30,893 nucleotides of DNA. Origin: a virus. Each line of letters opens with the position of its first letter. The first letter of the stretch is position 1. The translations under genes were made by a program, and so were the position numbers. The notes beneath the pieces are model-generated. The model saw only the letters and a list, made by a program, of their open reading frames with translations, had not been told where the DNA came from and searched no databases. Of the stretch, positions 1,140 to 29,428 are shown piece after piece. The DNA is taken from positions 1-30,893 of IMG/VR virus record IMGVR_UViG_3300038441_000780; one strand, given 5' to 3'.

Positions 1140-1800
1140 AGTAGAAACTAATCTTTAAACACTCGAGTGTTAGCGCTATTTGTCGGGCTTGTCCCGACTA
1201 CCATTGTATTTGTAAGCTCCCATCAAGGCTACTGCATACCTGTAGAATGGAACCGGCATGCTAAGTTTCAACCATTCTCGTGGTTCCTACACGATTTGAA
1301 CGTGTGACCTTCAAATTATGAGTTTGCTGCTCTACCAACTGAGCTAAGGAACCAATCCGGGCCTTTCACCCGACCGATCGGCTAACCATTCGGCTCCGAC
1401 TAACGGTTTTTTTGCTGATCCGCTTACAGCTTTAAAATGCCTGCGTCCAGGCGGCGTACTTTTTAACGTGGCTTTCCGCCTTCCTCCCACATAATTTTTA
1501 AACTACTCCGCCCATTTCCAGCTGGGATAAGCTATATGAAGATCCCGTTACTCTATTCATATACTTCTGACTACACGAACAAGTCGCTTACCTCTCCAAT
1601 GAACGCCGCTACTGGAATAGCTGTAATAATTGACAGTGTTTAGTTTTAGTTACAATGGGAGCGACCCCGTCACTGACGTTTTTACACCTCTGGCTATATC
1701 AATTTAGCAGCTTTCTGTCTATTACCGTCCATCTTCAAGCAGAGTAGTATCAGGGCCGCGATTTCCACTCGCATAGCGTTGTACGTTCGCGGGTAACCTG
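1140..1800 (-). ncRNA. Candidate large structured RNA enclosing a tRNA (GOLLD/ROOL-like by context)
   Basis: About 660 bases without a convincing gene on either strand, read as RNA on the minus strand. It contains many helices: 1800-1797/1754-1751 stacked on 1792-1787/1761-1756 and 1785-1782/1773-1770; 1674-1669/1665-1660; 1563-1556/1540-1533; 1526-1523/1514-1511; 1480-1476/1454-1450 competing with 1452-1448/1443-1439; 1250-1247/1223-1220 around 1245-1242/1232-1229; 1198-1193/1187-1182; and a 14-base palindrome at 1158-1171. G+C is higher than in flanking genes (33/60 in 1741-1800 and 30/60 in 1441-1500, against 18/60 in 2221-2280). Established knowledge: giant phage RNAs GOLLD and ROOL lie beside or around tRNA genes. 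Membership in either is inference; I cannot match their consensus by eye. Ends are approximate. Confidence 0.45.
1281..1353 (-). tRNA. tRNA with CAT anticodon (Met or Ile2)
   Basis: A complete 73-nt cloverleaf: acceptor GGTTCCT/AGGAACC, D arm GCTC-AGTTGGTA-GAGC, anticodon loop CTCATAA, variable AGGTC, T arm ACACG-TTCAAAT-CGTGT, discriminator A. The anticodon stem GCAAA/TTTGA has a G-A mismatch at its outer pair. CCA is not encoded. Anticodon CAT means elongator Met, or Ile2 if the C is modified to lysidine; the sequence alone does not decide. It sits inside a hairpin-rich non-coding stretch. Upstream bases 1390-1399 can also pair with its 5' acceptor strand. Confidence 0.93.
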
Positions 1801-27014: not shown

Positions 27015-27273
27015 ATCCTAATGTTTTCCCAATTGGAATGCTGGTTATTACCATTGGCACTGACATAGAAGCCCCACCACTTTCAAACTTACTCCTAACT
27101 TCTCCAAAATTAGGAGTTACCCGGTGCGCCCCATTGACGCGCCTAATCTCGTCTACCAGCAAGCTAACCGCCTGCTTGAAGTTCTCCCGCATGTATTTCG
27201 CCGTCATCTGCTTCGATGGGCAATTGCTTGGACACGGGAAAAGTTCGTTAGCCAGTTTGTCAAGTGTCATCAT
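26992..27273 (-). CDS. Hypothetical protein with CPxxC motif (93 aa)
   Basis: Contains ELFPCPSNCPSKQMTAKYMR, with two cysteines spaced CPSNC, then a helix and a Gly/Ser-rich tail. The ATGATG start at 27273 overlaps the preceding stop; the end overlaps the Mu F-like gene by 23 bases. The cysteine pair could bind metal; not established. Confidence 0.6.
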   Translation of the reverse strand: MMTLDKLANELFPCPSNCPSKQMTAKYMRENFKQAVSLLVDEIRRVNGAHRVTPNFGEVRSKFESGGASMSVPMVITSIPIGKTLGYETSGEK

Positions 27274-27803
27274 AACAAATGTTTAGCTGATAATGTCGGA
27301 TCGCCAAGGCGGTATTTATGGAACACATAAAGCCCCTTGCATATTGCTAATTTACCGCCTTTTTGTTGAATTCGGCGGCAAAAGTCGGAATCGAATCGGG
27401 GGGAGTTCTCAATAAAGGGTGTTTCCTCCCAGGTTTTACGGCTGAAGAACATGCAGGCGGCGGCAATTGGTTTGATGGATGGCGTAACGATACTATAATA
27501 CATTGCCCTTGTGTCATTTGCGTGCTGTATATGATGGGTAATATCTACATCCTCACTACGCCGACTATTCAAAAGCTGGTGTATCCCTCCCAATCGGTTC
27601 ATAGTTGCTCCGAAAACATCGTAAGTATGGCCGTTACGCTCAATAATATCCTCAATCTGCCGACCGAAATCATCCGTTAGAAACATCACATCGCCATCAG
27701 TTATGCAAATCCAGTCATCCGGCGGTACCAATTCGCAAAAGCCGTTGATGTAACCACCGTAGTTCTTGCCGCTATCCCATATTGTGGTGTACCAGACTTT
27801 CAT
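27270..27803 (-). CDS. Small GT-A glycosyltransferase (177 aa)
   Basis: The DxD motif Asp36-Gly-Asp38 in DWICITDGDVMFL binds the nucleotide sugar and metal in family-2-type enzymes, and NYGGYINGFCELVPPDDW and SPRFDSDFCRRIQQKGGKL match the acceptor-side part. At 177 aa it is a minimal GT-A domain. Sugar and acceptor are unknown. It is coupled to a two-pass membrane micro-protein (ATGA overlap), and stands next to a larger glycosyltransferase. Confidence 0.7.
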   Translation of the reverse strand: MKVWYTTIWDSGKNYGGYINGFCELVPPDDWICITDGDVMFLTDDFGRQIEDIIERNGHTYDVFGATMNRLGGIHQLLNSRRSEDVDITHHIQHANDTRAMYYSIVTPSIKPIAAACMFFSRKTWEETPFIENSPRFDSDFCRRIQQKGGKLAICKGLYVFHKYRLGDPTLSAKHLL

Positions 27804-27979
27804 CTATCAAATACGTTGACAATAAAGCAATACATCAAAGTAATGGGCCAAAAAATAGCTGCTAATATACCCATGCATCCATCCTTAAATGACGTTTCGC
27901 CCTCATTGTCAAATGTAATTATAATTCCAACGCAAATAAAAAATGCATATACTATGCAAAGTATAATTAATAGTATCAT
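27800..27979 (-). CDS. Two-pass membrane micro-protein (59 aa)
   Basis: ATG 27979 to TGA 27800-27802, overlapping ATG 27803 of the small glycosyltransferase. Two membrane helices (ILLIILCIVYAFFICVGIII and GILAAIFWPITLMYCFIV) flank an acidic loop. The gene fills an otherwise empty gap between two glycosyltransferase genes; it could anchor the enzyme or act as a small carrier-type protein. No family assigned. Confidence 0.6.
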   Translation of the reverse strand: MILLIILCIVYAFFICVGIIITFDNEGETSFKDGCMGILAAIFWPITLMYCFIVNVFDR

Positions 27980-27985
27980 AAATAA

Positions 27986-29428
27986 CTATTTATGTTTAAA
28001 CCATGAGATGCCGTTATCTGCTTCGTACTTCTTAAACTCCGTATTAATCTGCTTACCGTGAATAACGCGATCCTTGAAATATGTATAGCATACGTAATTA
28101 TGTGCGCCCATGTCTGTAAGACCAGCGTTTGGTGATCGCTTAAGTTTAGCGTCATGTTCGCCCTCCTGGTACATATCTATCATGCGGGCCGTGTATTCTA
28201 GCATTATATCCACATCCCCGCCTACTAGACCAGCGTTCAAAAGTGGCAAGCCATAATTACGGGCAAAGAATCCTTTTAGCTTCGGGTGATTGTGATGTTT
28301 GTTTAGCCATACAGATCGTAATGTATCCGGCTCATCACCCACATACAATTTACCTTTCTCCATGTGGGGGAACGGATCGCGCAACATTTCTACGTCCGTG
28401 GCATCAACGCACCAAACATAATCTAATTCCGATTGATGTTCAATAAGCCATTCGCGATATGTGACCCAGCGCTGAAAATAAGGGTTGATACTTGGTTTAC
28501 GATATGGCAATGATCGGTCGTCTACAATAACGTCATTTTTCTTAACGCAGTCATGAAACACTATGAACTTGTCCCCCGTTGGGCGATGGCCTTGCAAAAC
28601 GCTTTCCGCCAACTTCAAAACAGGGTAAAAGTCGTAGTGCCATTCCCGCCCCTGCGGATCGGCCACACTTGTAAAGTAACAGGTAAGTACCATATTTGCA
28701 TCTCCTGCCTTATTTCTTCCCTTGCGCTCCGCTCCCTCTCTATACGGCACATATTCCGCACTGTTCAGCCTAGATTCATAAATCGGCTTATTCCTCATGA
28801 TCTGCGCCCGACGTTCCATGCCTGTACAGGTTGAAAAGCCTTCCTGATGTTCGTCGGCAGAATAGAACAACCCGGCGCTGTTTGCTACGTCCATGTAACG
28901 GAATGTGGTTAGGCCGGCGTTGTAGATACGGTTGGATAGATCCGGGTGATCGTATCCCCATTTCCCAAACACTGGATCCATGCCCCCCACATATTGCAAC
29001 ACGGATGAATGGAAATACATCATGCAGCCACGGGCATGGGAATAGGCGACGATCTTATCGTCCCTGTAAATCTCCACTGTGTCGTTTAATTTCTTGCCGG
29101 TAGCAAAATCCTTGAATATGTACATCAAATGCGGTTGACCGGCATTAATATACGGCTCCCACCAATTATCTGCAATGGAATGGGTGTCATCATCAAAAAG
29201 AAAGATATGTTCGCAATCATCGAGCAGTTCAAGGCACTTGTTTTTCGCTGCCGCCACACCTACATTTTTTTCAAAACGGAACGTAGCGCCCTCAATAGGT
29301 ACTGGACTGGCGTCGTCCACAATCACCAATTTGCAGTTTGGCGGCAAAAGCGGCTCCATCTTTTCAATCCATGTTTTCAAATATTCGTTGCGGCCGTGGC
29401 ATGTAACGCCTATCCCAATTTTATCCAT
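27986..29428 (-). CDS. Glycosyltransferase with two domains (480 aa)
   Basis: N-terminal GT-2 domain: GIGVTCHGRNEYLKTWIEKM, VDDAS at 37-41 and Asp79-Asp-Asp81 in FLFDDDTH, then a PVFGKWGYDHPDLSNR acceptor region. From about residue 245 a second GT-A-like domain begins (MVLTCYFTSVADPQGREWHY), with YVWCVDATDVEML as its DxD region and PLLNAGLVGGDVDIMLEY. A two-domain enzyme that could add two sugars or act on a glycan. Substrate unknown. Starts on the last base of the upstream stop. Confidence 0.8.
   Translation of the reverse strand: MDKIGIGVTCHGRNEYLKTWIEKMEPLLPPNCKLVIVDDASPVPIEGATFRFEKNVGVAAAKNKCLELLDDCEHIFLFDDDTHSIADNWWEPYINAGQPHLMYIFKDFATGKKLNDTVEIYRDDKIVAYSHARGCMMYFHSSVLQYVGGMDPVFGKWGYDHPDLSNRIYNAGLTTFRYMDVANSAGLFYSADEHQEGFSTCTGMERRAQIMRNKPIYESRLNSAEYVPYREGAERKGRNKAGDANMVLTCYFTSVADPQGREWHYDFYPVLKLAESVLQGHRPTGDKFIVFHDCVKKNDVIVDDRSLPYRKPSINPYFQRWVTYREWLIEHQSELDYVWCVDATDVEMLRDPFPHMEKGKLYVGDEPDTLRSVWLNKHHNHPKLKGFFARNYGLPLLNAGLVGGDVDIMLEYTARMIDMYQEGEHDAKLKRSPNAGLTDMGAHNYVCYTYFKDRVIHGKQINTEFKKYEADNGISWFKHK

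Follow-up and report, generated by a model that had tools for sequence, protein, structure and literature searches.

The giant RNAs GOLLD and ROOL form RNA-only nanocages, and their functions are unknown (PMC12286853). The linker of GOLLD can in some cases contain tRNAs, and one example, GOLLD env-38, sits downstream of a Met-tRNA (Kretsch et al., PMC12286853). Abundant long noncoding RNAs (ncRNAs), which their authors compare with GOLLD and ROOL, have also been described in Vibrio phage ICP1, where they occupy gene-free space, and in Staphylococcus phage K, where they lie near tRNA genes (PMC7567579, PMC9241854). A first-pass annotation had suggested that a tRNA-bearing stretch of another phage genome could hold a divergent member of GOLLD or ROOL or a new class of giant RNA, and here we compare that locus with these systems.

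The stretch of DNA that we analyzed, called the window throughout, comprises the 30,893 bases of the virus record IMGVR_UViG_3300038441_000780. A second record, IMGVR_UViG_3300028809_000005 (38,790 bp), is 100% identical to it across the stretches compared, starts within the right end of the window and extends beyond its left end. By window coordinates the ends of this longer contig overlap by about 127 bases, and therefore the phage genome is probably circular, with a size of about 38.7 kb, of which about 7.8 kb, including the portal and terminase genes, is absent from the window. Coding density is 90%. Besides the portal and terminase, the phage encodes RecT, a head protease, capsid and tail proteins, and glycosyltransferases; two of the glycosyltransferase genes (27270–29428, minus strand) sit in an unusual place within the head gene cluster, flanked by the genes for head morphogenesis and phrog_3392. 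The terminase shares 45–54% identity with its counterparts in Flavobacterium phage 11b, Cellulophaga phage phi10:1 and Bacteroides phage Versailles, and 57% with one from a Pedobacter genome; a Bacteroidota host is therefore likely. The features of the locus discussed below are all on the minus strand, so that they read leftward, and are given here in window coordinates:

2145–2174, minus: promoter-like site of the Bacteroidota type, TTTG-N18-TATGTTTG, a full consensus match
2077–2142, minus: 13-bp perfect inverted repeat, GTGCAACTGAACA (2142–2130) and TGTTCAGTTGCAC (2089–2077); 0.03 expected per window at a spacing of 20–80
2055–2099, minus: intrinsic terminator with an ACCCGCC / GGCGGGT stem, an 18-nt loop and a U-rich tail, from the terminator scan and the inverted repeat
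1807–1929, minus: 40-codon open reading frame (ORF) of doubtful coding status, neutral codon score
1354–1806, minus: noncoding stretch 5′ of the tRNA, candidate long RNA, G- and A-rich on this strand; fold z alone −0.57
1280–1353, minus: tRNA-Met (CAT), elongator type, 69 bits; fold z −3.95
1137–1279, minus: noncoding stretch 3′ of the tRNA, containing the hairpin GUCGGGACAAGCCCGAC (1198–1182); z −2.1
399–1136, minus: gene for a winged helix-turn-helix (HTH) protein of 245 aa (Pfam HTH_24, E 8.6e-6), downstream of the noncoding stretch

Between 1137 and 1806 (670 bases) no ORF of at least 50 codons lies wholly inside, no codon-usage signal was detected, and the six read-through frames show no trace of a protein family in Pfam or PHROG; the one PHROG match among these frames (E 0.02) falls at the tRNA. 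This agrees with the earlier statement that 1140–1800 holds no convincing gene, and the conserved protein frame that would tell against a structured RNA, sought as far as possible through codon usage, Pfam and PHROG, left no protein evidence. The 40-codon ORF at 1929–1807 has no family match in Pfam or PHROG and no significant tblastn match. The stretch 1137–1806 is already the longest gap in the window; when this ORF is discounted, the gap widens to the 1,022 nt that separate the gene at 1136 from the one at 2159 (1137–2158), three times the next longest (327 nt). Gaps of at least 600 nt are rare in related loci, with two listed in 1.14 Mb under the same rule, both visibly A+T-rich. The G+C content of 1137–1806 is 45.5%, against 34.4% in other intergenic DNA and 41.6% in coding DNA, so that the reported enrichment over its neighbors holds. 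A complete 50-codon ORF is missing in 13.6% of shuffles of the same composition, and the absence of ORFs alone is therefore no proof of constraint. A Fis-like fragment (DGNRQKAAKLI, 1774–1694, minus strand), suggestive by eye, found no support in Pfam, PHROG or PDB.

The first-pass annotation rightly placed a tRNA gene inside this stretch. Its closest chromosomal counterparts among those found are tRNA-Met (CAT) genes of 79–84% identity and elongator-type sequence, and it is because of this resemblance that we assign it to the elongator type. A pattern search for this tRNA matched no other viral contig, and a plus-strand match to plastid ycf2 proved to be the complement of the tRNA and fell below the cutoff.

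Outside the tRNA, we found neither a known RNA nor a relative. The GOLLD model (RF02032, 416 positions), run by name on the 38.8-kb contig, gave no match at E up to 10; the ROOL model (RF03087, 574 positions) also gave none at E up to 10, a result without a positive control, as 14 control genomes were likewise unmatched. With all of Rfam, at gathering and at permissive thresholds, only the tRNA was recovered, plus chance-level matches. By these model searches, membership of the stretch in a named RNA family, and with it the suggested placement in GOLLD or ROOL, is not supported. Using blastn against 50,697 phage records we obtained nothing better than E 0.07 outside the tRNA, and there was no convincing match outside it in plasmids, in 36 related viral records, in 18 genomes with related terminases, or in two slightly overlapping draws of about 400 Bacteroidota genomes each (about 800); the query recovered itself in its own record, which shows that the search works. 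No homologue was found in relatives whose terminases are 50–64% identical. Hunts through neighboring proteins (HTH, RecT, capsid, head morphogenesis, terminase and a 292-aa protein), through the tRNA pattern and through an exact 18-mer returned, for the noncoding stretch, the identical contig and chance hits only. A capsid 84% identical to that of this phage is present in IMGVR 3300028596. Judged by these comparisons, the phage is isolated within the phage, plasmid, viral and Bacteroidota collections searched. Weak matches at query positions 306–366 in several genomes cover an A+T-rich stretch, and we attributed them to chance.

A related phage (L113 in G017) has its own 1.2-kb region without ORFs of at least 70 codons (about 975–2178). 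It carries a tRNA without an anticodon stem (1501–1563, 44.4 bits), followed at about 1640–1690 by what looks by eye like a tRNA T-arm-like stretch on an acceptor stem; these tRNA-like elements are possibly tRNA decoys or decay products. As a homologue of our stretch this region was rejected, the best short alignment (E 0.004 at 69%) being unconvincing.

Folded at full length and compared with shuffles, the stretch gives z −2.86 on the minus strand and −0.47 on the plus strand. Among 15 minus-strand windows of the phage the former value ranks lowest, the 14 control windows ranging from +2.0 to −2.7, and with slightly different bounds it becomes −1.83. For the gene-free region of ICP1, taken as a yardstick, the better of the two strands reaches −4.0. 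Much of the folding excess seems to come from the tRNA: when the tRNA is kept intact and the 5′ and 3′ parts are shuffled, z is −1.44 and 12% of shuffles fold equally well. Most local 150-nt windows are average (z +0.3 to −1.8). The individual helices named earlier are mostly present, and a density of them beyond chance is only weakly supported by the fold models. Of these helices, the 6-bp stem 1198–1193/1187–1182 has the strongest support (P 1.00, z −3.5). The 8-bp helix 1563–1556/1540–1533 exists as an inverted repeat, but the predicted fold prefers 1581–1572/1563–1554. At 1751–1800, a hairpin (1800–1750) can form at −18.3 kcal/mol, but its z is −1.9, 12 of 200 shuffles equal it, and a pairing of 1759–1751 with 1669–1661 competes with it in the full-length ensemble.

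The statistically strongest feature near the stretch lies outside the region annotated earlier, at 2174–2055, where the promoter match, the 13-bp repeat and the terminator fall within 120 bp. Bacteroidota promoters follow a TAnnTTTG-type consensus. There are two full matches in the window and 1.1 are expected by chance from shuffles, so that where a match lies and what accompanies it carry more weight than its mere presence. The second match (24625–24595, minus strand) closely precedes the head protease and capsid genes and is a likely promoter of the structural genes; no other matching promoter was found on the minus strand from 2145 to the tRNA. In the terminator scan, which covered both strands of the window, no other strong terminator appeared. 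The first arm of the repeat is at the predicted 5′ end of the transcript and the second is inside the terminator loop, and the two structures are mutually exclusive or pseudoknotted; the minimum-energy fold of the leader contains the 13-bp hairpin and not the terminator (z −2.7). A promoter followed by a terminator and a competing upstream hairpin is, at the level of sequence, what an attenuator presents, and the leader may be one in which early hairpin formation favors read-through. A 46-codon ORF (2111–1971, minus strand) starts in the leader and crosses the terminator; it does not score like a gene in codon usage, but it could be a leader peptide.

At the level of sequence, the gene-free stretch with its tRNA is solid, and so is the arrangement of the leader, whose elements are unlikely to be found together. 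We propose a single leftward transcription unit on the minus strand, running from about 2140 to 1137, which would open with a regulatory leader (promoter, 13-bp hairpin and intrinsic terminator), continue into a noncoding RNA of about 670 nt with the embedded elongator tRNA-Met, and head towards the HTH gene. If the nascent 13-bp hairpin formed first, the terminator would be occluded and polymerase would read through; if the hairpin were prevented, transcription would stop near 2055. Host tRNA-processing enzymes would then cut the read-through RNA and release the tRNA-Met, and the left-over 5′ part of about 450 nt and 3′ part of 140 nt might be a stable long ncRNA that has its own role, as in other phage long ncRNAs linked to tRNAs, or a processing spacer. 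What we infer here is that the locus is transcribed, attenuated and processed, as well as any function that the noncoding part may have, a long transcript across the stretch being plausible from the sequence. As a whole, an attenuator-gated unit that carries a long ncRNA with an embedded tRNA upstream of the HTH gene is our preferred reading, held tentatively and at somewhat less than an even chance. In its favor are the lack of a coding signal, a G+C content above that of coding and other intergenic DNA, a gap that is the largest in the window and of a size rare among relatives, the modeled preference for folding on the minus, tRNA-sense strand, and the leader, whose predicted promoter is the sole match before the tRNA and whose terminator is the sole strong one. 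Against it, with no homologue found, neither covariation nor any sign that the noncoding part is under selection supports it, the predicted folding is not clearly better than that of shuffles once the tRNA is fixed, and the terminator may simply end an upstream operon while the promoter match may be chance.

That a captured tRNA is here surrounded by nonfunctional or decayed DNA, in a cargo site whose genes were lost and where the tRNA is the sole functional part, is a serious possibility, though on the doubtful side. Structure close to chance outside the tRNA, the lack of conservation in the phage, viral and Bacteroidota genome searches, the share of composition-matched shuffles that lack the same ORFs, and the anticodon-stem-less tRNA in the ORF-poor region of the related phage all fit decay; yet the G+C content is well above that of other intergenic DNA, no protein-family remnant is detectable in Pfam or PHROG, and phages seldom keep 670 nt idle at a coding density of 90%. 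We think it unlikely that the stretch is a new-class giant structured RNA comparable to GOLLD and ROOL that folds, and perhaps oligomerizes, around the embedded tRNA. Its size, tRNA company, gene-free context and strand-biased folding, together with the GOLLD tRNA-in-linker cases and env-38 (PMC12286853) and the ICP1 and phage K RNAs in comparable settings (PMC7567579, PMC9241854), would suit such an RNA, but nothing in Rfam matches, the tRNA seems to account for most of the folding excess, and the ICP1 region folds more strongly. The fuller version, in which a new giant-RNA class from a phage of Bacteroidota-like hosts is built around an embedded elongator tRNA-Met, and an antiterminator hairpin turns it on by capturing an intrinsic terminator's loop, strikes us as decidedly improbable.

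Two further explanations concern the leader and what lies below it. The main alternative to an attenuator is that the 13-bp repeat acts as DNA, as a paired repressor operator 53 bp apart or as a recombination site, in which case the leader would be no RNA switch. The perfect arms, their spacing of 53 bp from start to start (about five helical turns) and the overlap of the first arm with the predicted start site are compatible with this, but an operator would not need the second arm to lie exactly in the terminator loop beside the stem, and the window has no further copies of the repeat with fewer than two mismatches; we consider it rather unlikely. More doubtful than any of these is that the stretch serves chiefly as a long 5′ untranslated leader controlling the HTH gene (1136–399), with the tRNA incidental: it lies on the same strand, the terminator scan found no strong terminator between tRNA and gene, and an attenuator-like element stands upstream, but a leader of 670–900 nt would be very long, and once the tRNA was cleaved it would be split from the gene. 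If the stretch turned out to be only a spacer, it would warn against naming giant RNAs on the folding of a single sequence.

Compared with known systems, the putative attenuation unit resembles a transcription attenuator in having a promoter followed by two alternative hairpins, one of them an intrinsic terminator; it differs in that the competing arm pairs with the loop of the terminator and not its stem, and in lacking a known ligand, leader peptide or family match. Our literature search found nothing direct on RNA-based antitermination in Bacteroidota phages, for which this leader would offer a compact test case. From GOLLD the stretch differs in having no RF02032 match and no covariation-supported structure, and from ROOL in having no model match and a single tRNA inside instead of an island; the ICP1 and phage K ncRNAs are supported by RNA-seq, whereas ours is predicted from sequence, and ICP1 has no tRNAs. 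With GOLLD it shares a phage-encoded, large, gene-free stretch with a tRNA nearby, the context typical of GOLLD in phages and prophages being found here as phage genes and a tRNA-Met inside the stretch. With ROOL it shares a similar length (a 574-position model; 659 nt for env-120), phage encoding and tRNA company, ROOL lying near tRNA islands (PMC12286853). With ICP1 and phage K it would share a long noncoding phage RNA, in phage K also one near tRNA genes. As a long stretch without coding capacity, it is best read, by analogy, as resembling the loosely grouped long ncRNAs of phages that are linked to tRNAs, and a further, unrelated sequence with a tRNA inside a noncoding stretch would help to ask whether such a tRNA is cargo, processing signal or chance.
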